Positions 14,878-24,805 of a DNA stretch of 39,917 nt are shown here, one piece after another. The stretch is from Flavobacteriales bacterium (lineage in GTDB: Bacteria > Bacteroidota > Bacteroidia > Flavobacteriales_H > JAHEZO01). The position numbers were made by a program, and so were the translations under genes. The stretch lies in NCBI GenBank assembly GCA_023250995.1, contig JAHEZO010000006.1:1-39917 (forward strand), read 5' to 3'. Positions within the stretch are counted from its first letter, which is position 1, and each line of letters opens with the position of its first letter. The notes below the pieces were generated by a model. It was given only the letters and a program-made list of their open reading frames with translations, searched no databases and was not told the DNA's origin.

Positions 14878-17010
14878 TTAAAATTTATAGCGCATTTGAA
14901 TTTTTACTTCCGTTTTTGTGTTTCCCTGAATTTCGCTCAGGCCGGAGCTAATCATGTTTTTGTTGTTGATATAAGTCTGCCCCAACCGAAGCCAAACATC
15001 AAATTTCCGGAGGAACTTATATTGAAAAATAACATACGTTCTAACCCCGCGGTAATAATAAGCCGGAATGGAATAGGCATACAAAACCTCATTTTCATAA
15101 GCGTAAATTCTCGAATTATATGATTCTGTTTCGAAAAGAGCAAAACGGAAAGAAAATGAAAAGGGGTTGCTGTGCGCCTTAAACATTACATCCTGGTAAA
15201 TTAAATAACCCGATTCGGGTTTCAGGTTTCCAAGTTGATATTTCAAAAACTCCACCCGGTTCCTTAGGGTTATATCCTCTGTAACTTTATATGAAGAATT
15301 AAACCTTAGGTTTTGTTTTTCCCTGTCAGCCAGATAATCTATGATGGCAGCAGGGTCTTTGGAATTTATGCCTGCAGTTTTTTGCCTGTAGCGTGTGTAA
15401 ATCTCAAGCTTTTTATTTGGTTTGTAGGTGAGCTGGGCCAGATAATCTGTTCCCCCTGAAGGAGCGTTAACCTGGTATTTCAACCATGGGAATTCAAACT
15501 TGTCAACAAACCCTGCAAAAGTGAAATCGGAATTTAATTTTGCATTAATTCCAAAGTACAACCCTTTTTCGTTATTGGTTCCGGTTGACTCAGAAAAGGC
15601 ATTGCTGTAAACCGAATTATAATTTCTTTGAAAATTACGGTGAAGTATTGAAACACTTACTTCGGGCGTAATGCTGGCAATAGCTCCGTTCAGAAAGGCA
15701 AAACCGCCACTTAAACTTCGGGCGACCTCCCCAAAAAAATTCAGATTACGGATAATAAAACTGTAATCAGCCCCCAGGTTTTGATTAGCGGAGGCATAAA
15801 AATCATATTGATTATATGCGTTGGTTTTTTTTTGCAGCCCCAATGCCCAAAGAGATTGAACTCCCGATAGTCCAAATTCAGCATTTTCCCTTTTGTAGGC
15901 AATATGGCCACCGGCAATCGTTTCCCCCACTTTGTTTTTATTAGCCACTTCATTGGGAGTTCGGTGAAATCCTGAAGTTTGAACCGAAACCAAAAAGGAT
16001 TCTTCCTGGGTACCGCTGGTATCAGTTGTTCTTGTAACCGAAGCATCAAGCCTTTGGGCGGATAAAAATCCGGTAATTTCAAATTTTTTGATTGCAATTG
16101 TGGTAGCGGCTCCACGCATAAATAAATTCTCCATGGCCGAAACAAAAGGCCGGATGGCCAAAGGATTTTTTTTAATATTCATCACATCGGCCGATTTTCT
16201 ATAGGCCAGTCCCGACCAAAAAGTTAAGCCTTGCCCGAAGTTTACCTGATAATCGCCCAGAGCGAGAAATTTTAATTTGCCGAAATTCCTGAAATAAAGG
16301 TGGGCGGAATAAAAATCAAAACCATTTTTCTGTGTCCCCTTAAAAAATTCTTCCCCGGGATCTTTTTCACAGGTTAATCCGGCACTGATGTTAGTTCTGA
16401 AATTGAAACGATACCTTGCATAAAGCTTATCAGGCCCTCCTAAGTATCGGCTGTTGGGGTTGGCAAGCAAGAGAGAATCGGAAGCAGGTTTAAATCCTTC
16501 CATTTGTTCCACTATCCTGGTTTCGCGTACAATTACCTGATTAACGCTGTTCCTCATCAGATCCTTAAAACCAATATGCGGAGAATTAAAATTATCGGTA
16601 ACCTTAATAAACGGGAGGATATTCTGAATGGTTTGCAGGTCGAATCCATCTACTGATTGCAATTCGTAAATAGAGATCAGTTTTCCGTTTTTTGAAATAT
16701 GATTGAGTAAATTATTAATCTGAACATCGGTGAGGAGGTTTAGTTGCTGTAGTTGCTCTTTTTCGGCAAAATTCAGGTCCAGCGGATTGTCGAAAAAAAA
16801 GAGGAGCTCATCAAACATTGTTGAGTAATCAATTTCTGTTTCCTCATTGGCTTCTGCAATGGTTTCGATTTTTTTTTCAATAATATAATTTTTTTGGGGT
16901 TCGGCAGGTTCCTGTGAAAAAACAACTTTTGGCAAAGAAAAACAGGTGAGAATTCCAAGGTAAAAAAAACCTTTCAAAAAAATAATTTTTTCAAATTTAT
17001 TTAGAGCCAT
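14878..17010 (-). CDS. Helix-hairpin-helix protein with outer-membrane beta-barrel-like C-terminus
   Basis: 710 residues. The signal peptide is residues 1-33 (ending VFSQ). Two helix-hairpin-helix-like motifs lie at ~residues 77-140 (LDLNFAEKEQLQQL..., ISIYELQSVDGFD), as in ComEA-like modules. The remainder is rich in alternating aromatic/polar strands and ends in MRYKF, with a terminal Phe typical of outer-membrane barrels. Proteins with this layout are common but uncharacterised in Bacteroidota. A DNA-uptake role is suggested by the HhH motifs only; the M16 gene immediately downstream gives no direct help. The start ATG 17010 directly precedes a normal signal peptide. Confidence 0.82.
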   Translation of the reverse strand: MALNKFEKIIFLKGFFYLGILTCFSLPKVVFSQEPAEPQKNYIIEKKIETIAEANEETEIDYSTMFDELLFFFDNPLDLNFAEKEQLQQLNLLTDVQINNLLNHISKNGKLISIYELQSVDGFDLQTIQNILPFIKVTDNFNSPHIGFKDLMRNSVNQVIVRETRIVEQMEGFKPASDSLLLANPNSRYLGGPDKLYARYRFNFRTNISAGLTCEKDPGEEFFKGTQKNGFDFYSAHLYFRNFGKLKFLALGDYQVNFGQGLTFWSGLAYRKSADVMNIKKNPLAIRPFVSAMENLFMRGAATTIAIKKFEITGFLSAQRLDASVTRTTDTSGTQEESFLVSVQTSGFHRTPNEVANKNKVGETIAGGHIAYKRENAEFGLSGVQSLWALGLQKKTNAYNQYDFYASANQNLGADYSFIIRNLNFFGEVARSLSGGFAFLNGAIASITPEVSVSILHRNFQRNYNSVYSNAFSESTGTNNEKGLYFGINAKLNSDFTFAGFVDKFEFPWLKYQVNAPSGGTDYLAQLTYKPNKKLEIYTRYRQKTAGINSKDPAAIIDYLADREKQNLRFNSSYKVTEDITLRNRVEFLKYQLGNLKPESGYLIYQDVMFKAHSNPFSFSFRFALFETESYNSRIYAYENEVLYAYSIPAYYYRGVRTYVIFQYKFLRKFDVWLRLGQTYINNKNMISSGLSEIQGNTKTEVKIQMRYKF

Positions 17011-17053
17011 CCAGGGTTTTGAATAACTAACTGAGTTTACGCAAAAACATTAA

Positions 17054-17113
17054 TTTCCAAAATACAAATATCAAAATACAAATAATATTCAAAATCAAAA
17101 TTTCAATTATCAA
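17054..17113. repeat. Left heptamer array, (NNNNCAA)n
   Basis: Units ending in CAA follow one another: TTTCCAA, AATACAA, ATATCAA and AATACAA in perfect 7-bp phase (17054-17081), then units of 11, 6, 8 and 7 bp, the last being TTATCAA at 17107-17113. The array abuts the 3' end of the four-helix-bundle pseudogene and is the mirror image of the array at 17496-17548. Confidence 0.75.
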
Positions 17114-17121
17114 ACCGTCTG

Positions 17122-17420
17122 CTAAATTGATTTTTCGATTATTGTCGAATAAATCTTCTCAAATTGATTTGCCTCGTCTTGTAAATGTTTTCCCTTATGT
17201 TCAAATTCCCGCGCATTTGCCTCATAAATTAATCGAAGAAAATATGCGCTTTCCTTTGCTTCGATATAATTACCTCCAACGGAACCTGACGATCTGATAA
17301 CTTGCTTTCCATCTTAAATAATATCGGTTGTTTTTGGAAAATTTTTAAAATATAAACGAACATTCTTAGCAAACTGAAATGTGCTTTCTTATACATAGTG
17401 CTACGTAGTTCAGGCGACAT
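17122..17420 (-). pseudogene. Decayed four-helix-bundle protein gene (S23/IVP family)
   Basis: ATG 17420 reads MSPELRSTMYKK, then a frameshift leads into FAKNVRLYFKNFPKTTDII, an in-frame TAA, DGKQVIRSSGSVGGNYIEA, KESAYFLRLIYEANAREFE and finally QFEKIYSTIIEKSI with a stop at 17122. IRSSGSVGGNYIEA is the hallmark of the four-helix-bundle family related to the protein encoded in 23S rRNA intervening sequences. About 25 residues normally found between NYIEA and KESAYFLRL appear deleted. A frameshift, a stop and a deletion together make the gene non-functional. It lies between inverted heptamer arrays, which suggests that gene and arrays arrived or moved as a unit. Confidence 0.85.
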
Positions 17421-17446
17421 TTTTTCATTGGAGAATCATGTCGCCT
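17412..17446. repeat. 9-bp inverted repeat over the pseudogene start
   Basis: AGGCGACAT (17412-17420) and ATGTCGCCT (17438-17446) pair perfectly around a 17-nt spacer. The left copy is the start codon region of the four-helix-bundle pseudogene, so a transcript would place its start codon in a hairpin. Confidence 0.6.
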
Positions 17447-17495
17447 ATGCAATGAACGAAGTAGTAAGTCGAATGGCGGTTTAGAATTTTCTTTA

Positions 17496-17548
17496 TTGGT
17501 TATTGGAATTTTTTTGCAATTTGATAATTGTTATTTGTTATTTGAAAT
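17496..17548. repeat. Right heptamer array, (TTGNNNN)n
   Basis: TTGGTTA (17496-17502) and a 12-nt unit with an expanded T-run, then five units in exact 7-bp phase at 17514-17548: TTGCAAT, TTGATAA, TTGTTAT, TTGTTAT and TTGAAAT. These are reverse-complement in type to the NNNNCAA units at 17054-17113, and the two arrays bracket the four-helix-bundle pseudogene. Confidence 0.75.
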
Positions 17549-17580
17549 AGGGAGGTTCGTAAATCAGTTATTAACATACC

Positions 17581-17668: not shown

Positions 17669-18613
17669 TTATTCCCCTGATTTTTTTTTCTTTTTGGAAG
17701 TTTCTCTGATAAGGGAATAACTAAGTGACAATTGGGATGAATACCCTAAAACCGGATGCATGGATGCTGCAATGTCCATTTGAAAATTATGAAAAACCAC
17801 ACCTATCCCGAAATGGTTTACAAAGGGATTTGAGGATGTACCCGCTCTTAAATACAAAGATTCAATTACATGGTATTCCATACCGAATTTTACGATTGGT
17901 TTAAAATCAATGTCTTTTTCGGTTTCAATGCATAGGATAACTTTATCGGAAAATGAATATCCTGCTCCTGCCCTGAAAATGGTAGGAATTTTTTCGTTGT
18001 TGTAACTTGCCCCTTTTGCCCGGTTGATGTTAAATACATGCGCTCCGAGGGTAAGGTTTTTCGAAAGTTTGGCTTGCAATCCCGCTTCCCCGGCAATTAC
18101 ACCTTTGCTTCCGTAATTTTCAGCAATTTGAGTGCGCAAATAATCCAGTTGAATTCCGGCAGAAAAATTTTCTCCGAAGGTTCTTCCGTAGGCCAGCCCG
18201 TATTTGCTTTCGTTGTATTTTGAATATCCCAAAGAGGAAACATCCAACCCAAATACTCCGCTTTTGGTTGGAATAACGGCTATTCCCCCTTTTAACCCCA
18301 GGTTCGAAACAAAATATTTGCTTTCATAAAAAAGGCCTCCCGAAAAATTCTTTTGGTAGGCCAGTCCGGCCTGGTTATGATGAACGGCCCATGGGTCTGA
18401 AAGTGTAACAGAGGCATTTCCCATTCCCATTGACCGGGCTCCAATGGGGTAATTGTCAACGTAGGCGAAGGAAGAAGGAAGAAGAAAGAAAAAAGAAGAA
18501 ATAAAAAAGCCCCAAGCCCCAAGCCCCAAACTCCAAACCCCAAAGTGGTAGTTCTTTTGGGACTTGGGATTTTGGACTTTGAATTTGGAATTTATTTTTT
18601 TTTTATTCTTCAT
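17669..18613 (-). CDS. PorV/UPF0164-like outer-membrane beta-barrel protein
   Basis: 314 residues. After the signal region, YPIGARSMGMGNASVTLSDPWAVHHNQAGLAY matches the N-terminus of the PorV/PorQ/UPF0164 type of barrel (ARxxGMG-A, then D..A...N.AGLA). Alternating strands continue to SQLSLSYSLI near the C-terminus. PorV-like proteins shuttle or anchor T9SS cargo, and related barrels have unknown roles; assignment to T9SS is inferred from fold and from the adhesin nearby. The N-terminus is odd: residues ~8-35 are encoded by an inverted 7-bp repeat element (18509-18591), yet the frame stays open and the result still looks like a signal peptide ending at SSFA. No alternative downstream start precedes the hydrophobic core. 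Confidence 0.75.
   Translation of the reverse strand: MKNKKKINSKFKVQNPKSQKNYHFGVWSLGLGAWGFFISSFFFLLPSSFAYVDNYPIGARSMGMGNASVTLSDPWAVHHNQAGLAYQKNFSGGLFYESKYFVSNLGLKGGIAVIPTKSGVFGLDVSSLGYSKYNESKYGLAYGRTFGENFSAGIQLDYLRTQIAENYGSKGVIAGEAGLQAKLSKNLTLGAHVFNINRAKGASYNNEKIPTIFRAGAGYSFSDKVILCIETEKDIDFKPIVKFGMEYHVIESLYLRAGTSSNPFVNHFGIGVVFHNFQMDIAASMHPVLGYSSQLSLSYSLIRETSKKKKKSGE
18509..18591. repeat. Compact inverted heptamer element inside a coding sequence
   Basis: The left arm is five 7-bp units in phase (18509-18543): GCCCCAA three times, then ACTCCAA and ACCCCAA. After a 13-nt spacer the right arm (18557-18591) has five TTG-starting units of 7, 8, 7, 6 and 7 bp (TTGGGAC, TTGGGATT, TTGGACT, TTGAAT, TTGGAAT). 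The arms are inverted relative to one another, with the same NNNNCAA/TTGNNNN pattern as the arrays around the pseudogene at 17.1-17.4 kb. Confidence 0.8.
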
Positions 18614-19147: not shown

Positions 19148-22100
19148 TTATCTCTGCAAAATAATTTTAAGGGGAAGTGAAATCCCCTCTTCCCTTAGAA
19201 CCTGCAAAAAATAAATTCCATTTCTGTTGCTGCCAATATCAACCTCCGATTTTTTATTCAAAATATCCGCTTCATATATTGTTTCCCCAAGAATATTTAT
19301 TACCCGCAACCTGCCATTCCCGGCTTTATATCCGTCATCCACTTGAACAATAAATTTCCCTTTGTTTGGATTTGGGAAAATCCTGTAATAATGATTTTGC
19401 GAATTTTCGGTTATTCCTATCTGGGTTGCAATGGTAATTGAAATAATTACAGAATCTCCTTCTGAATCTGTAATGGTACAATTATAAATTCCTGCACATA
19501 GGCCGCTGGCAGTTCCGGTGGTTTGACTGTTCAGATCATCCCATAGGAAAGAATAGGGTGCAATTCCACCTGTTGCGGTAATTGTTGCTGATCCGTCACA
19601 ATTACCCTGGGTGGCAGGAGTATTTGTTTCACTCGCATTAAGATCAACGGGTGTGGGTGCAAGCGGACTGGTTTTGTTTGACCGTGAAGAATTATGATTT
19701 TCTGATGACTTTGTAGCACTGCAACCTATTGGATGTTTTACTTCAACAAAATATCTTAAACCAAAAGGAGTGATGGTATCAAAATCAGTATAAGAGCTGA
19801 GGTTGCTCTGAAGAGAATCAATCAAGACCCATCCGGTAGCGGGTTTGTATCTCGAAATGTAATAAGTGGGGAAATAAAATCCCTGGTAATGATCCCAAAT
19901 AAGGTTAATGGTATTTCCGATTCCCTGATTAATGGTAAGATGAATGGTTTTATGTTCGGCACTCATGGGAGATTCGTTGCCACAGGAATCCAGCACAGAT
20001 AATTTATATCTCCAGGAATGTTGCATGGGGTTTGCAACCGGATCAACATACAAACTAAGTGAATCAAAAGGAACGGTTCCTGCCAGTTGATAAACTCCCG
20101 CCTGGGTTGATTCTTTGTAAACTTTGTAAGAAGAAATTCCTAACCCGAAATATTTTTGCCAAACAATTTTATTTGTCCCTAAGGCTGAATCAACGGTAAT
20201 AAGGCAAATCTCGGGAGCACCCGGCAGTTGCTGCAATATTTCGGCAGTCAGTGCGCCCTTGCATCCGTTTGCATCAGTCACAAGCAAATTATAAGTTCCT
20301 CCTCCAACCCCCACAAGATCTTCAGAAGTAAGCCCATTCGACCAGCTGTATAAATAGGGGGATGTTCCGAGACTAACCGAAACAAAAACGGACCCGTTTC
20401 CACCACAACCCGGGTTAATGATTGAATCAACCGTTACAGTTGGCCCTCCAATTTCCGCAATGGCCGCAGTGGCGGAAACATCGCAACCTTTAATATCAGT
20501 AACGGTAACCGAATATATTCCTGAGGCAAGTGCACTCAAAGATGAAGAAGTAGCTCCATTGCTCCACAAATAGGAATAAGGAGAAGTACCGCCAAGGGTG
20601 TTAATGATGGTACTCCCGTCAAAACTACCGCAGGTGGCATCGTTGGAAGTTACTGTAACCTCCATGGAAGGGGGCTCAACAACAGATAAGCTTTTTGTTG
20701 TCAAACATCCATTTGCATCCGAAACACTCACCTCATAAGGCCCAGCGGTTAGATTTGATAAATCCTGGGTTGTATAACCATTCGACCAGGAATAAATGTA
20801 GGGAGTATTACCCCCGGTAACATTTATATTTATAGCTCCTGAGTTTTCGCCATAACAATTTATTTGCGTAATTGAATTTACGGTTACCGTGGCACCACCT
20901 GTATCGCTAATGGTTGCAGCGGTAAAATTAGAACATCCTGAATTATCAAAAACAGTTACCGCATAAATCCCGGCACTTAAACTATCTGCTGATGCAAGGG
21001 TATCTCCGCTGCTCCACTGGTAATTGTATGGGGGATTTCCTCCCCCGGCACTAATCATGGCCGACCCATTGTTTACTCCACAGGAAGAACTAACGGTTGA
21101 TACAATCATTGAAATAGAATTGGGTTGACCAATAACTATACTGTCGGTTTTTGCACAACCTGAGGAATCAACTACCGTAACAAAATATGTTGCAGGACAC
21201 AGACCTCCTACGGCATCCCCATAATTCCCATCGCTCCAGTAAAAAGAATAGGGAGGAATTCCTCCGGTTGCGGTGGCCATTGCTGTTCCATCACAAGAAC
21301 CATTACAAAGCACATCTGTTTTCGAAAAGGAAACTGAAGTGGTGGATGGTGCAGTAATAAAATGTGATTTATATTTTGAGCAGCCATTTGCATCGGTTAC
21401 AGTAAGAGAATAATTTCCGGGGGATAAATTTCCAAGGTTTTGGGTGGTATCTCCGGTGGACCAATAAAAATCATAAGGCGAAACTCCTCCATTTACAAAA
21501 GCGTCAATATTTCCATCGGCATTTCCACAACCCGAGGCATCATAGCCGGCTAGGGATAAATTCATTGATGGAGGCTGATTAATTTGAACCGTTCCGCTGA
21601 TGGCACAACCGGTGTTATCAGTAACTGTACCCGAAAAAGTTCCTGAGGAAAGACCGGTAATTGTCTGGGAATTCTGTCCGTTACTCCAAAGGTAAACAAA
21701 TGGAGGGGTTCCACCGGAGGGAGTAATCGTAGCAGTTCCATTATTTGTTCCGCTGCAATTTATGTTTGTGGAATTAAAACTGGCCGTAAGACCGGATGTA
21801 GTTCCTACATTTACTGTTCCCACTTTTTTGCAGCCCTTATTATCGGTAACGGTAAGAAAATAATTTCCCCCGGCAAGCGAATTGGCCGAGGCACCCGTGG
21901 GTCCCCCCGGAGCTGACCATAAATATGAATAAGGCCCCGTTCCTCCAGAAACTGTAGCGGTTGCGCTTCCGGTGGCACTTCCGCAACCTGCAGGAACTAC
22001 ACTGAAAGATATTATTATTGCTGAAGGACTGATTAGGGTAATATTTCCGGTAGTTCCGCAACCGTTCACATCATTAACTGTTAAGTTGTAGGTACCTGCA

Positions 22101-24805
22101 GTAAGATCGGTAATTGCTCCTGAATTGGAGCCGTTACTCCATAGGTAATTGTAAGAAGGAATCCCTCCTGAAACAGAAACGCTTGCCGTTCCGTCATTCC
22201 CTCCATAACAATTAACATCTGTTTTAAAAAAACTTAAACTTACAGGAGGGGATTGAGAAATGTTAGCACTGGAAACAAGGTTACAACCGTTTGCATCGGT
22301 TACGGTAACAGTATAGATATTGGCACAAAGATTTTGAATGTTTTTCAAAGTATCTCCATTGGACCATTTATAAGTATAGGGGGAAACTCCTCCACTACCA
22401 GTTACGCTTGCATTCCCATTGCAGATACTGTTGCAGCCATTGGTCTTGGAAATAATAACTGAGATGGCAGAATCGGGTTCCGAAATTGTTGCCACATTCG
22501 TAAATGATTCCGAACATCCATTTGAATCAAATACTGAAATGGAATCTGAATATGTTCCGGCACAAAGTCCGGTAATGGATGCAGTAGTGTTCCCGTTATT
22601 CCATAAAAAGGTATAAGGTGACTTTCCTCCATTGGCTGAAACACCCACCGAACCATTGCATTGGCCCGAGCAGGAAATATTTGAAGAAGAAAACTGGGCA
22701 CTAATAATTGTTGCGTCATCAATTGTTAATGCTGTTGAAGAACTGCAGAAATTACCATCTGTGATAGTAACTGAATATGTTCCCGGACATAAGCCAGTTA
22801 CTGCGGAAGAAGTTTTTCCAGTGCTCCAAAAAAAGGTGTAAGGAGATAAACCCCCGCTAACAGTAACAGAAGCCGAACCATCACAAATTCCAAAACAAGA
22901 AACCGGATTGGAAGATGAGGTTACGGTAATTAAATCAGGTTGGCTAATATTAATACTGTCTGAAATGGTGCAACCATTGGCATCGGTTGCGGTTACAGTT
23001 GGTGTTCCTGCACATAATCCGGTTGCACTCTGGGATGAAGAATAATTTCCGGCTTCATTCCATTGATACGATGAATAGGGTGTGGTACCGCCTGAAACAG
23101 TTACTTGTGCAGATCCGCTGCAAATTCCATTGCATAATAAATCCGTTTTTGAGGTTGATGAGGATAGTTGGCCCGGCACGGCAATAGTAACCGAATCCAC
23201 CATCGAGCAGTTATTCGCATCAGAAAATGTAATTTTATATGTTCCCCCCGATAATCCGCTTAGGCTTGCACCGGAATTTCCGTTTGACCAAAGATAAGAA
23301 TAGGGTTGGGTTCCGCCAGAAAATTCCGGGTTGAGGGATCCATTATTTCCTCCGAAACAGGATACATTGGTTTGGTTAAAAGAAGATATTACAAGAGCTG
23401 TTGGCTCACTGATGGAATCAACAAGAAATAAATTACATCCATTGACATCAGTTACGGTGAGAGATAAATTGGATGAGCAAAGTGAATTTATTGATGAAGC
23501 GGTGGAGGTATTTGACCACAAATAGGAATAGGGTGAAGTTCCTCCCGATAAAGAATTAACAGAGGCATTTCCGTTACAAAGGCCATTGCATGTGGCATTG
23601 GCAACCGAAATACCAGCCGATAATGAAGGAGGTTCATTGATGTTTGAACCTGCAACTACAATACAATTTTTACTGTCGGTAACGGTAACATAATAATTAC
23701 CCGGACAAAGTCCCGAAGCAGTGGAACCGGTTTGTGAATTTCCATCACTCCAAATATAGGTGTAAGGGTTTGTGCCTCCGTTAGCTGTGGCAACAGCATT
23801 TCCATTGCAATCCCCAAAACATAAAACTGAAGCATCCGGTACTATTGCAGTTAATTCAAAAGGTTCGGTGAGGGTGATGCTTTTTGAAGCGGAACACCCG
23901 GATCCGTCAGTAACCACAACGGCATAAGTTCCGGCCGTTAATCCCGAGGCGGTTTGAGTTGCCTGTGCATTAATATCATCCCAAAGGAAATTAAAAGGAG
24001 AAGTTCCCCCGGAAACGTTAGCGGTTGCACTTCCGTTTGATCCTCCAAAGCAGGAAACATTTATTGCTGAAGATATGGTTAAGGCTGGAGCTCCTGCATC
24101 ACTCACTGTGGCCGAAGCAGTCTTTGTGCAATTATTTGCATCGGTAACAGTAACGGTATAAGCTCCGGAGGGAATTCCGCTGATTCCGGCTCCTGTCATT
24201 CCATTAGACCATGAATAAGAATAGGGGATAGTCCCGCCTGAAGCAGTGGCGGTAGCGGTACCATCTGAATTTCCACAGGTAGCAATCGTTGAAGTGCATG
24301 ATGCTGTAAGAGCAGTTGGTTCGCTAATAATTATTGTTCCGTTGCTTGTGCATCCGTTGGCATCTGTTACCGTGCCTGAGTATGAACCTGCACACAAACC
24401 GGTAATGGCGGGAGTGGTTTTTCCATCTGCCCATAAATAATTATAAGGAGAGGTCCCTCCGCTGGCAGCTACAGTTATAGAGCCATTGCAATTCCCAAAG
24501 CAATTAACATTTTCTTTAGTTACAAGTGATAATGTTAAATCCGTTGGTTGAGAAATGCTAACGCCTGAGGTAGTTAAACAACCATTGGCATCAGAAATAG
24601 TAGCCGAAAAAGTTCCTGGGCAAAGACCGGTAATGGCGGAATTTGTTTTTCCGTTTGACCAATTATAGCTATAGGGGGATGTGCCGCCATTTACTGTTAC
24701 CAATGCAGAACCATTGCAAAGTCCGTTGCAGCTAATATTTATTTTAGAACCTGCGGAAGTTAGCAAAGTGGGTTGAGTGACGGTGGCACTCCCGGTTTTG
24801 TACAT
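19148..24805 (-). CDS. SprB-repeat surface protein, 3' part of a frameshifted giant gene, with T9SS sorting domain
   Basis: 1885 residues as read from an internal ATG (24805). The true beginning is the gene ending at 24760: its last repeat, DNLGCTK, continues here as TGSATVTQPTLLT, one base out of frame. Twenty-one SprB repeats of ~70-80 residues (pattern GGTxPYxYxWSNG ... VTDxNGC) occupy residues ~1-1525 and ~1735-1790. Two FN3-like segments lie between (~1526-1695). Residues 1805-1885 form a type A T9SS sorting domain (YYRIFPNPNKGKF ... NGIYFLQV), so the product should be exported across the outer membrane and attached at the cell surface. SprB-repeat proteins act in adhesion and gliding. 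The first ~15 residues of this frame duplicate the overlapping end of the upstream frame, so this is not an independent gene start. Confidence 0.85.
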   Translation of the reverse strand: MYKTGSATVTQPTLLTSAGSKINISCNGLCNGSALVTVNGGTSPYSYNWSNGKTNSAITGLCPGTFSATISDANGCLTTSGVSISQPTDLTLSLVTKENVNCFGNCNGSITVAASGGTSPYNYLWADGKTTPAITGLCAGSYSGTVTDANGCTSNGTIIISEPTALTASCTSTIATCGNSDGTATATASGGTIPYSYSWSNGMTGAGISGIPSGAYTVTVTDANNCTKTASATVSDAGAPALTISSAINVSCFGGSNGSATANVSGGTSPFNFLWDDINAQATQTASGLTAGTYAVVVTDGSGCSASKSITLTEPFELTAIVPDASVLCFGDCNGNAVATANGGTNPYTYIWSDGNSQTGSTASGLCPGNYYVTVTDSKNCIVVAGSNINEPPSLSAGISVANATCNGLCNGNASVNSLSGGTSPYSYLWSNTSTASSINSLCSSNLSLTVTDVNGCNLFLVDSISEPTALVISSFNQTNVSCFGGNNGSLNPEFSGGTQPYSYLWSNGNSGASLSGLSGGTYKITFSDANNCSMVDSVTIAVPGQLSSSTSKTDLLCNGICSGSAQVTVSGGTTPYSSYQWNEAGNYSSSQSATGLCAGTPTVTATDANGCTISDSINISQPDLITVTSSSNPVSCFGICDGSASVTVSGGLSPYTFFWSTGKTSSAVTGLCPGTYSVTITDGNFCSSSTALTIDDATIISAQFSSSNISCSGQCNGSVGVSANGGKSPYTFLWNNGNTTASITGLCAGTYSDSISVFDSNGCSESFTNVATISEPDSAISVIISKTNGCNSICNGNASVTGSGGVSPYTYKWSNGDTLKNIQNLCANIYTVTVTDANGCNLVSSANISQSPPVSLSFFKTDVNCYGGNDGTASVSVSGGIPSYNYLWSNGSNSGAITDLTAGTYNLTVNDVNGCGTTGNITLISPSAIIISFSVVPAGCGSATGSATATVSGGTGPYSYLWSAPGGPTGASANSLAGGNYFLTVTDNKGCKKVGTVNVGTTSGLTASFNSTNINCSGTNNGTATITPSGGTPPFVYLWSNGQNSQTITGLSSGTFSGTVTDNTGCAISGTVQINQPPSMNLSLAGYDASGCGNADGNIDAFVNGGVSPYDFYWSTGDTTQNLGNLSPGNYSLTVTDANGCSKYKSHFITAPSTTSVSFSKTDVLCNGSCDGTAMATATGGIPPYSFYWSDGNYGDAVGGLCPATYFVTVVDSSGCAKTDSIVIGQPNSISMIVSTVSSSCGVNNGSAMISAGGGNPPYNYQWSSGDTLASADSLSAGIYAVTVFDNSGCSNFTAATISDTGGATVTVNSITQINCYGENSGAININVTGGNTPYIYSWSNGYTTQDLSNLTAGPYEVSVSDANGCLTTKSLSVVEPPSMEVTVTSNDATCGSFDGSTIINTLGGTSPYSYLWSNGATSSSLSALASGIYSVTVTDIKGCDVSATAAIAEIGGPTVTVDSIINPGCGGNGSVFVSVSLGTSPYLYSWSNGLTSEDLVGVGGGTYNLLVTDANGCKGALTAEILQQLPGAPEICLITVDSALGTNKIVWQKYFGLGISSYKVYKESTQAGVYQLAGTVPFDSLSLYVDPVANPMQHSWRYKLSVLDSCGNESPMSAEHKTIHLTINQGIGNTINLIWDHYQGFYFPTYYISRYKPATGWVLIDSLQSNLSSYTDFDTITPFGLRYFVEVKHPIGCSATKSSENHNSSRSNKTSPLAPTPVDLNASETNTPATQGNCDGSATITATGGIAPYSFLWDDLNSQTTGTASGLCAGIYNCTITDSEGDSVIISITIATQIGITENSQNHYYRIFPNPNKGKFIVQVDDGYKAGNGRLRVINILGETIYEADILNKKSEVDIGSNRNGIYFLQVLREEGISLPLKIILQR

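Follow-up and report, generated by a model that had tools for sequence, protein, structure and literature searches.

A decayed S23 gene between facing heptamer arrays points to a probable mobile element related to rRNA IVSs and located between protein genes

The window analysed here, a stretch of 39,917 nucleotides from a Flavobacteriales genome (contig JAHEZO010000006.1), contains the remains of an S23 gene enclosed by two arrays of 7-bp repeats that face each other. On balance, we lean towards the view that such structures are mobile elements with an S23 core between facing 7-nt arrays, and that they are relatives of the rRNA IVS residing between protein genes. The copy in the window is best explained as a dead one, its core having been captured within a MITE whose spreading copies mostly lacked the gene. 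For prokaryotes at large, the best explanation is that the core (an S23 gene between an array and its inverted counterpart) forms a discrete insertion, which genomes acquire and lose and which can be reduced to a hairpin lacking the gene.

Results

The window element was delimited by alignment with copies from the same genome, its ends being set by eye, with 33 gene-less and five S23-bearing copies serving as reference set. It extends over 539 bp (17030..17568, no strand assigned); one of the other copies (C106) measures 540 bp from end to end. The left terminal inverted repeat (TIR; 17030..17043, plus strand) reads ACTGAGTTTACGCA, the family consensus being ACTGAWGTTACGCA. The right one (17556..17568, minus strand) is decayed and reads TTCGTAAATCAGT, where the aligned copies have TGTGCGTAACATCAGT. 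Inside these ends lie the two heptad arrays, which were located by TRF and whose extent was set by eye. The left array, with CAA corners, covers about 17054..17114 (plus strand), and TRF reports a 14-bp (2x7) consensus, CAAAATACAAATAT, at 17058-17084. The right array, with TTG corners, faces the left one at about 17495..17547 (plus strand), and here a 7-bp unit, ATTTGTT, is reported at 17519-17544. The original prediction had called the arrays exactly mirrored; both are indeed present and facing, but this wording is slightly too strong, as the 7-bp phase slips in places and one 8-bp step occurs on the left side. The window element folds end to end.

The decayed S23/IVP-type gene that had been proposed to lie between the arrays is present. 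Translation and alignment with a copy on contig C316 of the same genome place this four-helix-bundle pseudogene (TIGR02436, PF05635) at about 17131..17394 on the minus strand, where one frame reads QVIRSSGSVGGNYIEA joined to KESAYFLRLIYEANAREFEHKGKH. The C316 copy scores above the TIGR02436 cut-off (64 bits, E 3.4e-17) and shares 89-92% DNA identity with the window copy, in which an internal deletion of about 55 bp has occurred. The HMM search of the window S23 copy itself gave no match because this copy is too decayed.

The element lies between two protein-coding ORFs and outside any 23S rRNA gene. According to ORF and profile searches, these neighbours encode a protein of 710 aa without NCBIfam match (14878..17010) and a protein of 314 aa which is PorV/PorQ-like below the curated cut-off (17669..18613). 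Both are located on the minus strand, as is the S23 remnant, which is thus co-directional with its two neighbours and follows the general pattern described below. A further facing heptad array is found at 18507..18593 (no strand assigned); it encloses no gene and consists of five AAGCCCC units followed by TTGGGAC-type units; TRF detects the former at 18507-18543 and the latter at 18557-18579, in agreement with the facing-array scan. This array is located at the 5' end of the PorV/PorQ-like ORF. Further along the window, 19148-24805 encodes a protein of 1885 aa with a type IX secretion sorting domain.

A search of the genome with positions 17020-17580 as query returned 80 matching pieces. In most copies the gene is absent, so that hardly anything separates the left end (query 9-140) from the right end (457-555); S23 sequence, as a gene or its remains, is retained at five places in the genome. 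The aligned copies have sharp ends and differing flanks. With at most one mismatch, the end pattern ACTGAWGTTACGCAHA matches the genome 125 times, as compared to 0 times for the reversed control, and 56 elements running from TIR to TIR can be delimited, most of them without an S23 gene. A 5-bp target duplication is perfect in 27 of these 56 elements, where 4.4 are expected when partners are shuffled; the duplication of the window copy itself is decayed, with three of the five bases agreeing. The unit in the window therefore sits within a MITE that has its own 14-bp TIR and a family-specific 5-bp target duplication. The heptad arrays, which had been taken for the termini of the element, are not transposon ends here, because this copy spread as the interior of a MITE with its own TIR. 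The proposal of a spreading element with an internal gene holds as far as mobility is concerned, but the gene is optional and is missing from most copies in this genome. The same TIR also bounds other interiors, including elements of 100-184 bp. At five loci (L331, L333, L338, L320, L330), MITEs with window-type TIR enclose repeat hairpins of the GxxExxY type (see below). A transposase-bearing copy with the family TIR was not encountered among the loci examined, the assembly being in 341 contigs.

Furthermore, the association of S23 genes with facing arrays was assessed in other genomes, the search for arrays covering the surroundings of S23 genes and a sample of other stretches. A first contig scan with a broad alignment did not find a conserved stretch, and genus- and family-level searches for relatives returned the window genome only. 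TIGR02436 genes were found in 153 of 198 sampled genomes of the class, with up to 22 copies per genome. Flanks were obtained for 132 distinct S23 genes, and control ORFs were taken from the same loci. Arrays of 7/8 bp flank 97 of the 132 S23 genes on both sides, as compared to 3/201 control ORFs, the S23 sample being made up of best-scoring matches and thus non-random as to gene quality. As a second control, ParE toxins, another small multi-copy family, showed facing arrays in 0 of 24 cases. The original prediction of an enrichment of facing arrays over chance and of a link to four-helix-bundle genes is thereby borne out in this sample.

The pairing of the two arms was scored as ungapped complementarity with a threshold of at least 24. 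This score is reached at 78% of the S23 loci and by 4.5% of the control ORFs (Mann-Whitney p = 2e-39). It is reached by 4.6% of arms paired across different loci, by 11% in direct orientation and by 0.8% in shuffles, so the matching is specific for arms that share a locus. At the thresholds used, matched arms are missing from about a fifth to a quarter of the S23 loci. Outside Bacteroidia-type genomes, arrays flank both sides in 28 of 34 loci, drawn from 80 named loci in a scan of genome contigs; among them are Nitrospirae, Planctomycetes, Acidobacteria, Proteobacteria, Firmicutes, Chloroflexi and a Methanophagales archaeon. Facing arrays also adjoin most of the S23 genes examined on cyanobacterial plasmids and in viral contigs.

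The unit sequence varies between loci, but within a locus the two arms match. When sites orthologous between species are compared, the left arm pairs better with its own right arm than with that of another species: the scores are 36 vs 18 at sufB/sufC (own partner best in 9 of 10 cases), 36 vs 16 between thiolase and acyl-CoA dehydrogenase (6 of 7), 33 vs 24.5 at sdhA/sdhB and 25 vs 17 at fadB/fadA. The arms of a locus thus change in concert, which either copying from one arm to the other or selection for pairing would bring about. The suggestion that units drift while the phase is kept agrees with these locus-specific units and matched arms, and the facing orientation is kept as well. Array length also changes in whole units: plasmid copies that are otherwise near-identical show length differences of exactly 14 bp and 7 bp in one array, as expected from slippage by whole units. 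Arm mismatches on the sense strand showed no excess of G-U over A-C (71 vs 79). With 71 on the sense and 79 on the antisense strand, there is therefore no sign of selected RNA pairing.

Read toward the gene, the arms are G-rich and C-poor (left arms A.38 C.09 G.24 T.29), and AG occurs in 72% of the unit consensuses as compared to 13% on the other strand, so that an inward polarity is fixed; the CAA units of the window are among the exceptions to this composition. A polarity set relative to the S23 strand was considered and dropped, as the inward polarity is symmetric under reversal. A TRAP-like ring binding AG triplets was also considered and is not claimed here, the enrichment of AG over composition being modest. 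Many Flavobacterium-like loci have units of 8 nt, and a Muribaculaceae locus has units of 9 nt (L189-L197, L228). When non-orthologous loci of different genomes are compared, arms of one locus reach a score of at least 24 with those of the other in about 1-2% of cases below 50% S23 protein identity, in 27% at 60-70% and in 64% above 70%, figures which undetected orthologs may inflate. That arm similarity is found mainly at 60% S23 identity or more would fit a joint movement of the gene and its arms.

Cyanobacterial plasmids provide the empty orthologous sites that had been proposed as a test, alongside occupied and gene-less versions. On conjugative plasmids of Nostocales, the element is present in Trichormus and Scytonema and absent from Nostoc linckia and N. 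carneum, the occupied and element-free plasmids sharing about 98% identity; a possible GTAAT duplication accompanies the occupied copy. In Calothrix, the element lies between an integrase gene and the next start codon and is absent from three relatives. At a third plasmid site, it is present in two Nostoc plasmids, absent from one and represented by gene-less facing arrays in another; these arrays are of the GGGAA type (L287). Related elements also occur at three unrelated sites, and their similarity stops at the arrays. An S23 gene on one Nostoc plasmid is interrupted by a gene-less hairpin of about 160 bp with the unit type of the resident arms (L376). A Stanieria site was rejected as an empty site, because one arm is still there and an internal deletion seems to have removed the rest. 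Target duplications, which had also been proposed as a test, are clear for the MITE family described above; for the core outside the MITE, no clean duplication was established, the possible GTAAT being confined to one site. Overall, the mobility of the element is well supported.

Most elements occupy intercistronic gaps within operons and are oriented in sense, and the examined loci lie between protein genes. Both neighbours are on the S23 strand for 112/130 S23 genes, as compared to 96/168 control triples. Recurrent sites, with gene names assigned from the neighbour sequences, are fadB/fadA, thiolase/acyl-CoA dehydrogenase, sufB/sufC, sufS/sufE, sdhA/sdhB, hisB/hisH and argC/argD. The sense orientation is a bias only: about 4 of 11 copies on cyanobacterial plasmids oppose their neighbours, and one S23 element of these plasmids lies antisense between nrdB and nrdA. 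Also on cyanobacterial plasmids, S23 elements are found between cas6 and cas4 of type I-D CRISPR operons (L272, L277). In Bacteroidia, gene-less facing arrays with matching unit type occur in other gaps near S23 elements. At one locus, such arrays lie in the gaps on either side of argG (L053, 4391-5812), with units of the type found in the nearby argC/argD S23 element.

The solved S23 structures 2GSC and 2RLD contain five chains each. One S23 relative matches PF05635 with E 1.5e-40, and S23 matches bAvd (PF22296) with 22.5 bits, below the 40-bit cut-off. In profile searches, two S23 relatives matched only PF05635 and, weakly, bAvd; there was no Y1 transposase domain, and no catalytic domain was recognised in S23.

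Facing arrays were initially regarded as exclusive to S23, an idea that was dropped as GxxExxY genes (TIGR04256; PF13366 PDDEXK_3) are flanked by them too, with a different unit. Here the facing units are CACAGAG/CGCAAAG, their spacing is irregular at about 8-12 nt (L290-L319), and 17 of 26 loci have matched arms. Counted on the two strands, the motif CRCRRAK occurs 71 vs 15 times in the left flank and 21 vs 63 times in the right flank.

Discussion

Taken together, these data suggest that the arrays and the S23 gene form a unit, probably a selfish element related to the 23S rRNA IVS whose S23 ring would recognise its own arms. In Coxiella and Leptospira, the IVS likewise carries an S23-family ORF in its loop, in sense orientation and within about 430 bp, and its terminal inverted repeats form a stem, to which the arms matched in most of our loci correspond. 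In Coxiella, tandem GACAGAT heptamers precede the S23 ORF in strain-variable number, and the stem has 28 bp (PMC4990558). In contrast to the IVS, the elements described here lie between protein genes, each of their arms is a heptad array that faces the other and has units specific to the locus, and gene-less copies as well as element-free sites exist.

On these grounds, a mechanism may be proposed. The two arms would fold together into a long hairpin, in RNA or in single-stranded DNA, and an S23 pentamer made from the transcript of the host operon could bind its own arms in heptad register, thereby protecting or mobilising them. Gene-less hairpins with a matching unit might be mobilised in trans as non-autonomous partners of S23. 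The arms would grow and shrink by 7-nt slippage and stay matched through copying between them or through selection for pairing, and capture inside a MITE, as in the window copy, would open a further route of spread. Inferred here are the binding of the arms by S23, the kind of nucleic acid that forms the active hairpin, and the enzyme responsible for moving the core.

Another system with similarities is REPIN-RAYT. RAYT is a Y1 tyrosine transposase, whereas S23 is a four-helix bundle, and the arms are heptad arrays here instead of single REPs. Common to both systems are palindromic arms and the occurrence of a rare gene-bearing element with gene-less palindromic relatives in one genome (for REPINs see PMC3116915).

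An unlikely alternative is that the window case is merely a MITE moved by a DDE transposase in trans, with S23 and the arrays as passengers. The 14-bp TIR, the 5-bp target duplication, the many short non-coding copies and the other interiors within the same TIR, including those of 100-184 bp, are all what a MITE would show. However, five copies of the window family keep the S23 gene or its remains, and the core element is found elsewhere without such a TIR. A MITE accounts for the spread of the window copy, but not for S23 genes between facing arrays of other units in many phyla, and it leaves unexplained why the identity between plasmid copies ends at the arrays; moreover, no transposase with the window TIR was found among the loci examined.

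To the same degree doubtful is a domesticated RNA device, in which the stem would form in the mRNA and be cut by RNase III, so that the S23 loop is excised and the expression of the flanking genes is tuned, as in rRNA IVSs. The intercistronic and mostly sense location at conserved operon junctions common to several families, the maintained complementarity of the arms and the RNase III precedent of IVS excision (PMC4990558) argue for it. On the other hand, G-U asymmetry is absent, antisense copies exist, and selfish turnover is suggested by near-identical plasmids that differ in the presence of the element, by decayed copies and by hairpins lacking the gene.

Less probable still is that S23 is the Avd-like part of a retroelement whose reverse transcriptase acts in trans, the arrays arising by slippage on the cDNA template. 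S23 shares with the Avd protein of diversity-generating retroelements the four-helix-bundle pentamer fold known from the literature and the weak, sub-threshold bAvd match, and Avd is required for retrohoming and resembles PF05635 (PMC10053308). Against this, neither a reverse transcriptase nor a template or variable repeat is annotated beside the S23 copies in the 11 cyanobacterial plasmid regions. Finally, that the arrays are ordinary intergenic heptanucleotide slippage tracts in or near which S23 genes insert is very improbable and largely contradicted: in many prokaryotes, heptamers form the most abundant class of intergenic tandem repeats (PMC6344855), and gene-less facing arrays do occur, but slippage alone yields neither the facing orientation nor matching within loci with mismatch between them, control ORFs at the same loci lack arrays, and the element-free plasmid sites (Stanieria excepted) show no pre-existing array.

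The mobile S23 element thus remains the reading that we prefer, and it bears on heptameric repeats that have been described separately (PMC4692102, PMC4679880, PMC6344855) from the rRNA IVS (PMC4990558). Like the arms found here, the repeats of Xanthomonas (GGGAATC) and Nostoc (GGGGAYT), the TAACTGA repeats and the cyanobacterial heptanucleotides are 7-nt units, intergenic and sometimes arranged in convergent pairs, of which one Xanthomonas genome has 70 (PMC4692102). TAACTGA arrays are the complement of the TCAGTTA-type arms found here. In contrast to our findings, these papers report no link to S23, with 0 mentions of it. In a search of open-licence papers, the association of S23 with facing arrays was undescribed, although an earlier description elsewhere is possible. 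More tentatively, and with chances that we rate slightly below even, S23 and GxxExxY may exemplify an undescribed mobile class in which a small gene is enclosed by facing phase-locked arrays recognised by its product (7/8-nt units for S23, CACAGAG/CGCAAAG for GxxExxY), a class that would include the rRNA IVSs and be a source of bacterial heptamer repeats.

Conclusions

Overall, the facing repeats of the type seen in the window belong to a widespread and apparently undescribed kind of small mobile element that lies between the genes of operons, and conserved operons such as suf, sdh, fad, his, arg and cas carry such insertions between their genes. The link between S23 and the arrays makes it testable that heptamer arrays are the arms, or the remains of arms, of S23 elements, and that the rRNA IVS is one niche of a far larger class of elements. 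The hundreds of natural pairs of protein and arms should be helpful as material for finding out how the S23 ring might recognise nucleic acid. S23 elements may thus explain the long-puzzling 7-base repeats of bacteria.
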